DNA from: Candidatus Cloacimonadota bacterium | GTDB taxonomy: Bacteria; Cloacimonadota; Cloacimonadia; JGIOTU-2; B8-G9 | DNA length: 13,690 nucleotides | Assembly: GCA_003647765.1 (NCBI GenBank) | Contig: QMNM01000011.1 | Span: 1 to 13,690 of the forward strand | Direction: 5' to 3' | Notes under the pieces: model-generated | Databases searched by the model: none | What the model saw: the letters and a program-made list of their open reading frames with translations, nothing else | Told to the model about the DNA's origin: nothing | Made by a program: the position numbers and the translations under genes | In this document: piece after piece, positions 5,229 to 13,641 of the stretch | How the letters are laid out: each line of letters starts with the position of its first letter | Numbering within the stretch: position 1 is the stretch's first letter

Positions 5229-5326
5229 CCATTAGGACTTTTGCAGAATAGTTATATAAGTTCGCTTAAAAAAGTACAAATAATTGCGAGTGAATAAATC
5301 CACACGTTAAATCAAAAAAAGCGTTC
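5229..5326 (-). repeat. Dispersed terminator-linked repeat, copy 2
   Basis: This is the inverted partner of the repeat at the window's left edge. The conserved core is 5281-5326, and weaker similarity extends left to the aggacttttgcag motif near 5235. On the minus strand the core starts within a terminator hairpin and then carries a second small hairpin (5290-5303). One of the four differences from copy 1 changes a G-C pair of that second hairpin into a G-U pair in the minus-strand RNA, so the fold is kept. Its orientation matches the end of the leftward kinase gene. Confidence 0.7.
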
Positions 5327-5337
5327 TAAAGAACGCT
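5314..5337 (-). terminator. Intrinsic terminator of the leftward kinase transcript
   Basis: Read on the minus strand, agcgttc (5337-5331) pairs with gaacgct (5326-5320) around a 4-base loop. The stem is seven perfect pairs and is followed at once by a T run (A7 on the plus strand, 5314-5320). It lies about 175 bases past the kinase stop. On the plus strand no T tract follows the stem, so it should work only leftward. Confidence 0.8.
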
Positions 5338-5445
5338 ATTAAAAGGACACTTTAGCCTCTTTTTATTCCTTTATGCATTATGCTCTTACACTGTCGTAAC
5401 ATCTATTTGTACCTTATTTGTGTTCTTTTGTGGCTAAAGAAATAC

Positions 5446-5494
5446 GCACTACGCCTTACGCATTACGCACTACGCATTACGCACTACGCCTTAC
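5446..5494 (+). repeat. 7-bp tandem array, seven units of GC(A/C)(C/T)TAC
   Basis: Seven consecutive 7-mers run from 5446 to 5494, in the order gcactac, gccttac, gcattac, gcactac, gcattac, gcactac, gccttac. An incomplete degenerate stretch lies just upstream (tgcattatgctcttac, about 5373-5388). The array ends 17 bp from the stop codon of the large kinase. A closely related array sits inside that kinase gene (8875-8958) and a two-unit remnant lies at 13629-13641, all in the same orientation. Confidence 0.95.
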
Positions 5495-5511
5495 GCTTGA
5501 ACTGATTTATC

Positions 5512-8500
5512 CTAAAACCCTGTTCTATGCAAAGGCAAAGATACAAAGAAAATAGAACCTTCACCTTTATTACTTTTCACCCAAATTTTGCCATTATGTA
5601 AATCAACAATAGTTTTAGCCACAGCTAATCCTAATCCTAGTCCAGATGACTTATATTCCATCAAACCAGAATGATGTGAGTTAATATCACCGACTAAATA
5701 AAATTCCTTGAATATATTTTCTTGTTCCTCTAATGGCACGCCTATGCCATTATCTTCTACATAAATAACTAATGATGTTTGCCCCTCTATTTTCTCATTT
5801 TGGAATCGTGATATACGGCTACCAATGGTAATTTTGCCATAATTATCTGTAAATTTTATAGCATTTGATATTAAACTATTAAGTAGGCTATTGATACTGT
5901 CTCTATTTATTTTTACTTTTGGCAAATCCTGTGCGAGATTCATAATCAGGTTCTGGTTCCGTTGTTTTGCAAAGAGCTTCATTTCTGAATATACTTCTTT
6001 AATAACTTCGTTAATATCTTCTTCCTTTTTTTCCAGAACATCTATATTTTTTACTTCACCTAATCGTAGAATACTTTGAGAACTATTTATTAGACGCTCT
6101 ATATTTTTTTTCATTATAGGGATTACTTCATTTAATTTCTTGTTTAGCTCTATCTCTGGATTAGATAACATTTTTAAGTATCCAGATAAAGTAGTTAGAG
6201 GAGTATTAAGCTCATGAGAAACTAAATGAATGAATTCTCTTCTAATTTTATCCGATTTTTTAAGTTCAGCATGGGCATTTTCCAATCTACTATAGTCAAG
6301 AGCATTTTTGATTGCAACAGAAACCTGCAATAAAAAGAGCTCTAAAAGTTTTTCATCAAATTTAAGAATTTTTTCCTTTGCTCCCAAATTATCAAGATAT
6401 AGATAACCAAAGTATTTATTATTTACTTTAACTGGTGAACAATATATAGAGTGTAGCTCATTTCTTCTAATGCTTAAAGAATCATTAAATTCATTATGTT
6501 CCATAGCATCTAAAGTAATAATTGGTAAACCATATTCACTAACATCTTTTATAATAGTTGTACTAACTTGAAGATTATTATTAGGAATGACCTCTTCATA
6601 TTTATTAATGTTTACTTTGAAAAGTAAATTATCATTTTTATCAATACGCACAAAAAATCCTCTTTCTGCACCAGATAAGTGAATAGCATATTTAGTGATA
6701 GCAAATAGTAATTCATCCAAGTTCATAATCATGTAGATATTTTTTGCAGATTCTAATAATCCTGCAATCTTTTTCTGTTGCTCTTCTATATACTTATGCT
6801 CCCCAATTTTGTATAGTAAAATTGTAAGATAGAGCTGAGTCCTTTTTATAAGCATCTTTTCTCTATTTGTAAAAACTAATTCTCCATTATCAGCAAAAAT
6901 CCCTACTCCTACTCGTTCATTTTGCAAAATAAGTGGGACAAATATATAATGTCTATCATCAATGTCTTTATACAGAATCTCTTTTGTATTAAGAGAATGA
7001 GTTATCCATTTATATATCAGCTCATCACGAACCTCTTCTTTATAAAAATTATATCTTATAAATGGCTCTTTTTTCTCTGCAATTTCTTCACTTGTTATAA
7101 TCGCAAATTTATAAGGGCTAATAACTGCTCTAATCTGTTTCCCAATGAAAAATTTTACTCGCTCCCTATCTCTAAGGTAAATTAAACTAAGAAATAATGG
7201 CTCCATTTTACTACTAAAAAAAGATTCTCTTGGGACAATATACTTTTTAATATCTACTTTATGAATATTTTCCTGATAGTCATTTGCTGCTAAATAAGAT
7301 GCCTTTTTTTTCTCATCTAATCCAGAAATAAGTTTCTTTACTGTATTTTGATAATTTCTAAAATATTCTTGCGATTTATCCTTTATTTTTAATGCATTAT
7401 ATACTATAAATAGTGAAAATTGAGTATGAACTAACAATACTAAGCAATTCATATCGTAGAAATTTTGTTCACAATCTAATAGTTCTCTGAGAATCTGTCG
7501 TAAATGGACATTTTTATCATACATATTTATTTGTGCAGATAATAAATTCAGATAATATTTCCAATATTTAAAACCATTTCTTTGTGTAATAGCACTTACT
7601 TTTTTAAGGTAAATAAGAGCATCTTTATAATTCCCTAAATTATAATAACATTTTATTAACGGTATTGTATCAACTACATACGCGTATTCATTTTCATTTT
7701 TTTCTGCTAAATTGATAGAAGTTTTAAAGAATTCAGTTGCTTTATTATATTCTTTCTTATGAAAATGGATCCATCCTTGAATTTGACTGATAAATTCTTG
7801 TTCAAGGCTATAATCTAATTCGCTTTTTTTAATGCTAACATAAATTTTCTCTAATTCCTCAATTTCGCCAATATTGTAAAGATAAAAGCAATAGGACTTA
7901 ACAAAAGCATCAATTTTAGTCGGCTTTTTAGTTTTGTAAAACATTGGACTATTTTTAGCTATAAAATTTAATGTCTCTTGAAAAGGTCTTATTTTCCCAA
8001 TTAAGAATGTATATCTGGACAATATTCTTTTTTCAAATTTTTTATCATCAATAGATCTGGCTATTTTCAATGATTCCTTATAATAATTATCAGATGATTT
8101 AAAATCACCCATTTTATAAGTAGTTTCAGCTAAATTAAATTTTCCTAAAGCAATTCCAGTCCGATTTTCTGTCTCCTCAAAATACTTAAGAGCTTGAGTA
8201 AAATTATCATAAGCTGTATTTAAATTACCTCTTTTTAATTCTATATCACCTATATTGTTATACACACTTGCTAAGTATATATGATTATTTCTTTTTTCCC
8301 AGATCTGACGAGCCATTTGAAAATATTCACTTGCCAATTTTAGATTATTTTTTACATTATAAATCAACGCTGTATTATTATAAATTCTAGCCAATATATC
8401 TTGAAATTTGTGCTGTATAGCAATTTGTTCACCTTTTCTTAAATATTGTAATGCATTATCATAGTATTCATTAAGATAGTAATGAATCCCTATCAAGTTA

Positions 8501-11124
8501 TAGAAAAGAGCTCGCTGTATATGACTCATATCCAAATTTATAAGCTTATCAATATGTTTCCTAGCCTCATCATTAGAAGTTCTACAATAAGAGCCAATTA
8601 AATGTATCTCTATGTCAATTTTCTCGCTATCATTCGCATATTTTCTAGAAAGATTGAAAACTTTAATTGCTTTCTGATGACTTGCATATTTTTGCAATAA
8701 TAATCCATAATAAAAAAGTATCTTAAAATTGGGCTCTACCTTTTCCTTTAATGCCTCGTATTTAGAAATACCTTCTATATAATACCCATTAGAATTACAT
8801 ATTTCCATAAATTTTATAAGATATTGTTTTAACTTGTCAGCACCAATATATTCTGTATTCTGACTTCTGGCTACGCTCTTCGCTCTTCGCTCTTCGCCTT
8901 TCGCATTTCGCTCTTCGCTCTTCGCCTTTCGCATTTCGCTCTTCGCTCTACGCTCTTCGCAATAGTGTTGTTCTGCTAGTTCTATAGCTTTTTTTGAATA
9001 TTGATATGCATACTCTCTTTGAAAATTTCCATGATAATAGTCGCTCAATAATGAATAATATTTAGTAGCAGATAAATAATCATTTATGAATAATGAGTGC
9101 TGAATTATACCCTGCATAATCTCTGGCACAGTAACTTCCTTATCCTGAAAATATGCTATGACTTTTTTACTAACATATTCTTTATCGTTATCGTCTGTTA
9201 ATTGTTGTAATTTCTCTTGGAGTTTTGGATAAATAAACTTATAATAACCATTCTTAGTATATTTTTCATCAAAAATAATTACATTCCTTTTGTAACATCT
9301 ATCAAGAAGGAAAAATGCATCTTTTTTATCAATATTTAGTATAAAAGCAGATAAATTTACTGAGATTGGAACTTTTAAAACAGAAATCTGTTTTAAAGAA
9401 AAGATTATATCATTAGGAATTTCAGAAATTTTTTTATCAATCATATCCTCTATTTCCTTAGGTAACATCACTTTTGACCAATCTATATCAAAATTATATT
9501 TGCCCTGCTTATTCAATATAAGTGTACTTATTTGTCCCTTTTTTATCATAGAACTTAATAAATGACGAATAAAATAAAGATTGCCATTAGTGATCTTGTA
9601 TATATTTTGTATGAATTGCACTGGACATTCATATTCCAAGATGAATTTAATATATTGAGCAGTTTCTTCGTAGTTAAGAGGTGTAACATTTATCCGAACA
9701 CAATAATACACTTTATCCATCAGTTCAAAATTTTCAATAGTAATAACGATAAGTATTGGATGGTTAATTATATCTTTGGAAATGTATCTAAGAAATTTGA
9801 TAGAATCTTCTGTCTCCATAGAAAGATTGCGAATAATGAAGATTAAAGGTTTGTCTTTTGCTTTCATAAACATCAGATTTTTTACTAATTCAAAATCTTT
9901 TTCTAAACTTTGCTTATCTTCTTTTAATTCTAATGCATCTTCTTCTGAACGGAAGAAAAATTCTTGAAGCTTATCAGATGCCTCTTTAACATAAGCAGTA
10001 ATTGTATCATCTTTATTTTCTCCTTTAACATAACAATATAATTCCTTAACTAATGCAAAAAATGGATCTTTATGAGAACTATCACAATTATAGTCAAACA
10101 GAAAATGCTCACCTGAAAGAATTTGCTTTCTAAAATATGATAAAGTTTCAGCTTTTCCTACACCAAAATCACCTGTTAATGCCACAATCTTTCCATTACC
10201 AGAATACACCAAGTTTACATAATCCTTCAAATTCGTTAAGTAACTATTCCTTATATAATAATTTTTAGATTCTATTATATTAATCAATGAGTAATCAGTT
10301 GCTACTAAATCATATTGTACATCTTGAATTTTGTTAATATATCTAATAATATCTGTTGCATTATGAATGCGGTTAGAACTATCTAATTCAAGTAGGTCTA
10401 GTATAATATTTTCTAATTCTCTTGATACTATTGGATTTATTTTATGAGGAAATTTAGGTATAATTTTTTGAAACCTTTTACTTTCCATTAGGCCAATTTC
10501 GTCTTTAGAAAAAGGATAGTTACCAGTAGATAGATAATAAAGTATTACTCCTAATGAGAAGAAATCACTTTCTGGGACAAAACCCTTTCCTTGCAGAACT
10601 TCAGGAGCAATGTAAGGAAGCGAACCTATTAATTCTTTATCTCCAGGAGAGTGTACAACCTTGTTAAATCCATAATCAACAATTTTGATAGATACTGTAC
10701 CATTCTCCTTGTGATATAATACATTATCTAATTTAAGATCCCGATGAATAATATCTTGTGAATGTAAGTAGTTCAGACCGTAACATATTTTTACAATTAT
10801 TTCATAGAAAATTGGTAGATTCTCCTTTGTTAGTCTGAAATCACTCAACTTCTGCTCTGAAAAATATTCAAATAGACAGTAAAGAGTATTTTTATGAACT
10901 CCGAAGTCATAAATCTTAATTACATTAGGATGATTCATTTTTGTAAGTAAGTACATATTTTGTGGATCTAATTTTTCCTTTATATCATCCAGTCCTAGTT
11001 TTGTGAATAATTTTAACGCATAAATTTTGTCATCTCTAATGTCTTTAACTTTATATACAACTCCAAAATTCCCTCTGCCTAATTCTTTTAATACCTTGTA
11101 ATGTAAATCAATTACTTTCATCAT
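5512..11124 (-). CDS. Giant hybrid Ser/Thr kinase - STAND ATPase-like - TPR - GAF - histidine kinase
   Basis: An 1870-residue signalling protein with no transmembrane segment or signal peptide, so probably cytoplasmic. Order: Ser/Thr kinase (about 8-265) with GRGNFGVV (16-23), K38, HRDLKLDN (127-134), D150 in a DYG variant of DFG, and APE (173-175). Then an AAA/STAND-like region (about 300-520) with P-loop GDFGVGKAE (318-326) where Ala325 replaces the usual Ser/Thr, and a hydrophobic strand ending in Arg-Asn (432-433) where Walker B acids belong. A long helical and TPR region (about 660-1250) follows, then two GAF-like domains (about 1300-1440, poor; about 1450-1600, better). The histidine kinase ends the protein: H1637 in SHELNTPL, N-box N1754, G1 D1791 in EDNGIG, and a GLGLGLAVAK G2 box near 1825-1834. 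Cyanobacterial HstK-type proteins combine the same two kinases. No response regulator is in the window. Residues 723-750 are an in-frame repeat array. It probably shares a transcript with the BatE-like gene 108 bp upstream. The exact ligand and targets are unknown. Confidence 0.93.
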   Translation of the reverse strand: MMKVIDLHYKVLKELGRGNFGVVYKVKDIRDDKIYALKLFTKLGLDDIKEKLDPQNMYLLTKMNHPNVIKIYDFGVHKNTLYCLFEYFSEQKLSDFRLTKENLPIFYEIIVKICYGLNYLHSQDIIHRDLKLDNVLYHKENGTVSIKIVDYGFNKVVHSPGDKELIGSLPYIAPEVLQGKGFVPESDFFSLGVILYYLSTGNYPFSKDEIGLMESKRFQKIIPKFPHKINPIVSRELENIILDLLELDSSNRIHNATDIIRYINKIQDVQYDLVATDYSLINIIESKNYYIRNSYLTNLKDYVNLVYSGNGKIVALTGDFGVGKAETLSYFRKQILSGEHFLFDYNCDSSHKDPFFALVKELYCYVKGENKDDTITAYVKEASDKLQEFFFRSEEDALELKEDKQSLEKDFELVKNLMFMKAKDKPLIFIIRNLSMETEDSIKFLRYISKDIINHPILIVITIENFELMDKVYYCVRINVTPLNYEETAQYIKFILEYECPVQFIQNIYKITNGNLYFIRHLLSSMIKKGQISTLILNKQGKYNFDIDWSKVMLPKEIEDMIDKKISEIPNDIIFSLKQISVLKVPISVNLSAFILNIDKKDAFFLLDRCYKRNVIIFDEKYTKNGYYKFIYPKLQEKLQQLTDDNDKEYVSKKVIAYFQDKEVTVPEIMQGIIQHSLFINDYLSATKYYSLLSDYYHGNFQREYAYQYSKKAIELAEQHYCEERRAKSEMRKAKSEERNAKGEERRAKSVARSQNTEYIGADKLKQYLIKFMEICNSNGYYIEGISKYEALKEKVEPNFKILFYYGLLLQKYASHQKAIKVFNLSRKYANDSEKIDIEIHLIGSYCRTSNDEARKHIDKLINLDMSHIQRALFYNLIGIHYYLNEYYDNALQYLRKGEQIAIQHKFQDILARIYNNTALIYNVKNNLKLASEYFQMARQIWEKRNNHIYLASVYNNIGDIELKRGNLNTAYDNFTQALKYFEETENRTGIALGKFNLAETTYKMGDFKSSDNYYKESLKIARSIDDKKFEKRILSRYTFLIGKIRPFQETLNFIAKNSPMFYKTKKPTKIDAFVKSYCFYLYNIGEIEELEKIYVSIKKSELDYSLEQEFISQIQGWIHFHKKEYNKATEFFKTSINLAEKNENEYAYVVDTIPLIKCYYNLGNYKDALIYLKKVSAITQRNGFKYWKYYLNLLSAQINMYDKNVHLRQILRELLDCEQNFYDMNCLVLLVHTQFSLFIVYNALKIKDKSQEYFRNYQNTVKKLISGLDEKKKASYLAANDYQENIHKVDIKKYIVPRESFFSSKMEPLFLSLIYLRDRERVKFFIGKQIRAVISPYKFAIITSEEIAEKKEPFIRYNFYKEEVRDELIYKWITHSLNTKEILYKDIDDRHYIFVPLILQNERVGVGIFADNGELVFTNREKMLIKRTQLYLTILLYKIGEHKYIEEQQKKIAGLLESAKNIYMIMNLDELLFAITKYAIHLSGAERGFFVRIDKNDNLLFKVNINKYEEVIPNNNLQVSTTIIKDVSEYGLPIITLDAMEHNEFNDSLSIRRNELHSIYCSPVKVNNKYFGYLYLDNLGAKEKILKFDEKLLELFLLQVSVAIKNALDYSRLENAHAELKKSDKIRREFIHLVSHELNTPLTTLSGYLKMLSNPEIELNKKLNEVIPIMKKNIERLINSSQSILRLGEVKNIDVLEKKEEDINEVIKEVYSEMKLFAKQRNQNLIMNLAQDLPKVKINRDSINSLLNSLISNAIKFTDNYGKITIGSRISRFQNEKIEGQTSLVIYVEDNGIGVPLEEQENIFKEFYLVGDINSHHSGLMEYKSSGLGLGLAVAKTIVDLHNGKIWVKSNKGEGSIFFVSLPLHRTGF
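8862..8960 (+). repeat. In-frame 7-bp tandem array inside the hybrid kinase gene
   Basis: Twelve perfectly phased 7-mers of GCNNTTC type (one GCTCTAC) fill 8875-8958. Degenerate units extend to about 8862. The total of 84 bases is a multiple of three, and three units make 21 bases, so the host protein gains a 7-residue repeat: EERRAKS, EMRKAKS, EERNAKG, EERRAKS (residues 723-750). The array falls between predicted TPR-type helices. The highly charged composition is unlike the flanking protein and is explained by the DNA repeat rather than by protein family conservation. Confidence 0.95.
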
Positions 11125-13628: not shown

Positions 13629-13641
13629 GCCCTACGCATTA
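13629..13641 (+). repeat. Two-unit remnant of the 7-bp tandem family
   Basis: gccctac (13629-13635) followed by gcatta matches the unit and phase of the array at 5446-5494. It overlaps the first base of the AGGTGG ribosome site of the gene starting at 13652. Confidence 0.5.

Follow-up and report, generated by a model that had tools for sequence, protein, structure and literature searches.

A dispersed heptanucleotide repeat as an in-frame insert in the hybrid kinase gene of a Candidatus Cloacimonadota bacterium

Several families of short repeats have been described that resemble the one reported here. The GGGNATC heptads of Xanthomonas and Nostoc are dispersed tandem repeats, mostly intergenic with some intragenic, which favour the sense strand within 50 bp of stop codons and prefer four units (PMC4692102). 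Geobacter metallireducens carries heptad elements of fixed copy number, GGACCGG x4 (49 sites) and MTYCTGA x5, for which a regulatory role was proposed (PMC2700814). TAACTGA repeats of Beggiatoaceae, Cyanobacteria and Bacteroidetes consist of one invariant unit and lie mostly just upstream of start codons (PMC4679880). Borg tandem repeats and aaTRs are genome-specific and add amino-acid repeats to conserved proteins (PMC9879509), and the palindromic elements of Rickettsia are the classic case of in-frame insertion into genes (described in PMC1950309).

The window analysed here is a stretch of 13,690 nucleotides that represents contig 11 of a metagenome-assembled genome (360 contigs, 1.97 Mb in total), and it holds an array of GCGTANN-type heptads within a kinase gene. 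The repeat is like the GGGNATC family in being dispersed and mostly intergenic, in its sense placement near stop codons and in its preference for four units. In contrast to the G-rich, G-quadruplex-forming GGGNATC unit, it lacks G-tracts and combines a GCGTA core with two variable bases; the one G-tract per unit expected of a G-quadruplex heptad is absent from both the GCGTA and the GCGAA cores. A stop-free coding variant is present here, and none was found in the portion of the GGGNATC account available (PMC4692102). G. metallireducens likewise has short heptad arrays both in intergenic sequence and inside genes (PMC2700814), and its MTYCTGA unit is similar to the TTCTG units found here at 8849-8869. 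Like TAACTGA, the repeat is patchy across lineages and has one orientation that translates to stops, limiting its presence in genes, but TAACTGA is a single invariant unit near starts, unlike the variable-spacer GCGTANN (PMC4679880). Borg repeats are likewise genome-specific tandem repeats that lengthen conserved proteins; however, the unit length of those in ORFs is always divisible by three (PMC9879509). The units here are 7 and 8 bases, so it is the unit count that decides the frame. As in Rickettsia, dispersed DNA lies in frame within genes, although the Rickettsia elements are palindromic and the kinase array consists of tandem heptads without a palindrome (PMC1950309).

The array occupies positions 8849-8960 on the reverse strand, and its host gene (5512-11124, reverse strand) was defined by its ORF and Pfam matches as encoding a 1870-aa hybrid Ser/Thr kinase - ATPase - TPR - GAF - histidine kinase. 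On the coding strand, units 1-8 are GCGAAGA, GCGTAGA, GCGAAGA, GCGAAAT, GCGAAAG, GCGAAGA, GCGAAGA and GCGAAAT, and units 9-16 are GCGAAAG, GCGAAGA, GCGAAGA, GCGAAGA, GCGTAGC, CAGAAGT, CAGAATA and CAGAATA. Thirteen GCGWANN units are thus joined in phase to three CAGAANN units (8849-8869, reverse strand; TTCTG core on the forward strand). The initial annotation had placed twelve phased 7-mers at 8862-8960; the location stands, but the array reaches 8849 and comprises 16 heptads. The heptapeptide EERRAKS and its variants were read correctly. TRF reports a 7-mer in 12.4 copies (8874-8960) and gives a higher score to a 28-mer, that is, a four-heptad higher-order repeat in 3.0 copies with 94% matches (8879-8961, reverse strand).

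Nine exact matches to GCNNTTCGCNNTTCGC were found at the array and none in 200 shuffles, which confirms that it is genuine and beyond chance. Since the genome is a fragmented MAG, the assembly may have settled on a compromise for the exact number of copies. The fragmentation and the shortness of the repeats might even suggest that the whole array is an assembly artefact, or else a chance stretch of low-complexity coding sequence. Either is very improbable given the shuffles, the occurrence of the motif on dozens of contigs of the same genome, a frame that stays open through all 112 nt of in-phase heptads, and a GC content of 52% in the array vs 28% in its gene.

Pfam domains in the host protein include Pkinase (3e-51), TPR_12, GAF, HisKA and HATPase_c. 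Homologues of its middle part were found in 57 of 59 genomes searched, those outside its own genome at about 41% identity or less. The segment aligned to the array region has exactly 60 residues in 26 of 29 homologues from the same class (58, 59 and 69 in the other three) vs 96 in the window protein, so the latter has an insertion of 36 residues (108 nt). This length replaces the 84-base core and 99-base full length proposed earlier. The array heptapeptides are absent from all 29 aligned homologues, as expected for the in-frame insert that had been suggested, and its position between TPR helices was also supported. The further suggestion of a charged helical insert is compatible with an AF2 model computed without an alignment, where the insert and its flanks form one continuous helix (local pLDDT 66-88), but this support is weak with a whole-model mean of 49.9. 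The insert is read as 36 residues, charged and probably helical.

To place the array in its genome, 955 kb (48%) was read and the other half was covered by pattern searches only; gene calls were the longest open frames. In the first 823 kb, scanned without a preset motif, tandem arrays were mainly of period 7 (34) and period 8 (24) with few elsewhere, period-14 arrays echoed period 7, and mononucleotide-shuffled sequence gave no tandem arrays. The top-scoring period-7 array (L169:5781-5897) belongs to a separate A/T-rich family, AAT(C/T)AGA. The 955 kb contains 56 arrays of the heptad family, GCGTA plus two variable bases, 35 arrays of an octad family, CAAGANNN (CAAGA plus three variable bases), and smaller families including CAGAA plus two; arrays of different families do not co-localise beyond chance. 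The repeat is therefore dispersed, as the initial annotation had it. Non-coding sequence and gene ends (145 kb) hold 51 of the 56 heptad arrays vs five in 810 kb of ORF interiors, a density about 57-fold higher outside gene interiors than inside. With its head-to-tail 7-bp units beyond chance and this distribution of its family, the kinase array is classified here among the dispersed heptanucleotide repeats, as a variant form. Of the 266 GC-type units that lie outside gene interiors, 238 match the GCGTA core exactly, and the spacers vary (AT, GT, GG, GA, AG, AA). Genomic GC is 29%, and matches to Por_Secre_tail and Peptidase_C25 domains are present; these features point, though not conclusively, to an FCB-group bacterium. 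Four consecutive GCGTANN units were found in 2 of 97 related genomes, none of them nearer than the same order, and four of CAAGANNN in 1 of 97; being nearly absent from these relatives, both repeats are lineage-restricted. CAGAANN x4 was found in 12 of the 97. Heptads with an ATGCG core, mostly invariant ATGCGTT, occur in three other class members (L225-L244; G047, G080, G089).

Because 7 = 1 mod 3, successive heptads run through all three phases, and sense GCGTAR places TAA or TAG in frame at each third unit. Outside gene interiors, 262 of 266 units have a purine (A or G) as their first spacer base, so TAR is nearly universal there. Phases were counted in four in-frame arrays from three genes: the kinase, a UvrD helicase (two arrays) and a T9SS-type secreted protein with a Por_Secre_tail domain. 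At the critical phase, all eight units are GCGAA, encoding Lys, vs 10 of 21 units that keep GCGTA at the other phases of the same arrays. The same T-to-A change is thus the stop-avoiding solution in all three genes. The earlier reasoning that the frame is kept since 3 x 7 = 21 was incomplete, as the usual sequence brings stops and only the stop-free variant survives. The pattern is partly a survivorship effect, because an array with a stop would no longer lie in an open frame. At least five non-coding arrays contain GCGAA units too; the variant is therefore no proof of coding selection, and it could be that arrays were already stop-free on entering the genes.

Spacer order indicates how the arrays grow. 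Compared with within-array shuffles, matches between adjacent spacers are fewer (50 vs 68, p=0.001) and those at a distance of four units more numerous (54 vs 34, p<2e-4), the latter signal deriving largely from three arrays. Growth thus proceeded by blocks of about four units and not by single-unit slippage. The 28-bp block is clearest in the kinase array, L150 and L204, and as three such blocks make 84 nt, the reading frame is preserved. Between GC-array loci, three pairs share spacer order over at least six units vs 0.2-1.0 expected; since order is barely shared, local expansion is favoured over whole-array copying. Of the two words "mobile or expanding" used in the initial annotation, the second is borne out by 28-bp duplication here and genome-wide; the first may or may not apply, spacer order being shared between loci hardly above chance.

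Mobility could have come from a larger unit. Octad arrays are often part of longer composite dispersed elements and lie next to fixed modules: CAAGA units are found upstream of 12 of 15 copies of the TAIL module. In the gene for a bifunctional NAD(P)H-hydrate repair enzyme, where an octad array fills the interdomain linker (28 residues vs 6 in 2ax3), a palindromic module found elsewhere in the genome travels with the octads in frame, and some GCGTA arrays have a CACCACAGAGACACAGAG junction in common. The kinase array might then have arrived in a mobile composite of array and fixed modules, the modules being lost later. We regard this origin as quite unlikely: no palindrome, shared flank or fixed module adjoins the kinase array, neither a transposase nor a target duplication was seen, and the weak sharing of spacer order applies here also.

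Heptad arrays in sense orientation cluster at gene 3' ends. Seventeen of 23 lie no more than 25 nt after a stop codon vs 8.2 expected under uniform placement in the same gaps, and antisense arrays do so in 1 of 7. Octads behave likewise in the sense orientation only (7 of 15 vs 2.3 expected). The kinase gene itself is followed by a sense array of GCGTANN (5443-5496, reverse strand; TRF); the second array that had been reported just past the stop is thus present, but with 7.7 units at a distance of 15 nt rather than 17. These placements raise the idea that a transcription-linked process makes or targets arrays on the sense strand at gene 3' ends, those within genes being stop-free off-target survivors. 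Two families with different cores and lengths share the placement, and the 5-nt core is protected while arrays grow about four units at a time, which also speaks in its favour; even so, we hold such a process to be unlikely.

Arrays were found in frame in other conserved genes. With its arrays, UvrD is longer by 14 aa than its nearest homologues; HypF is longer by about 11 residues than 3vth, and class II ribonucleotide reductase, with a GCGAA-bearing coding array, by about 10 than 1xje. In LptD, an octad array and a heptad array adjoin each other. Other candidates were rejected: MurA (L084), whose array adds only about 3 residues, and several arrays near ORF N-termini, judged to lie in open frame that precedes the true start, as in CoaE (L195), whose domain begins at residue 80. 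Separately, octad composite elements are read through as C-terminal tails of three ORFs (L075:9620-9705, L109:9227-9296, L142:8108-8252). The palindrome GAACGACCTTCCAAGGTCGTT has 21 copies in half of the genome (L073, L075, L091, L106 and others), about ten of which overlap ORFs, and several directly follow octads.

The kinase insert might instead have a function: as a single charged helix, it would extend or tune the TPR sensor and have been selected for in this lineage. Its open frame and the single helix in the AF2 model fit this view, and in-gene octad and GC-type heptad arrays are nearly always in the orientation that gives a charged peptide. However, selection against hydrophobic inserts would produce such a bias as well, the same DNA motif occurs in the unrelated UvrD, RNR, LptD and HypF and mostly between genes, and kinase homologues without the array hold a strict 60-residue loop. 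Selection for a sensor role therefore seems doubtful to us.

What we consider likely is a lineage-specific expanding short repeat that is tolerated as a charged helical insert in the kinase. The GCGTANN repeat, a 5-nt core with a 2-nt variable spacer, is normally found at gene borders. A stop-free, GCGAA-rich version with a few CAGAANN units may have arisen or landed between two TPR helices of the kinase, and duplications of about four units each then enlarged the array, its net length staying divisible by three; its length may still be changing. The TPR solenoid presumably tolerates the resulting charged, probably helical insert of 36 residues at little or no cost, and no signalling function for the insert would be needed. 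Even with a unit length that three does not divide, a tandem repeat can settle in conserved genes, the route into them being set by the number of units and the absence of stops at one phase only. The phase pattern lets a single genome reveal which of its arrays are translated. In an uncultured lineage, conserved enzymes bear inserts derived from repeats, a point to consider in annotation and when such genes serve as markers.

Other repeats were noted in the window. The remnant at 13629-13641 (reverse strand) listed in the initial annotation is real, with 0.01 matches expected in the window; it is a two-unit remnant or seed downstream of a ribBA-like gene. A hairpin element of about 80-95 bp (AGCGTTCT..AGAACGCT) lies at 1-90 and, inverted, at 5272-5367, and dozens of copies, complete or partial, occur in the half of the genome that was sampled. 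A CACCACAGAGACACAGAG-type repeat at 2104-2290 is matched by BLAST at about 40 places in the sampled sequence, and copies of this type adjoin GCGTA arrays in L086, L101, L104 and L150.
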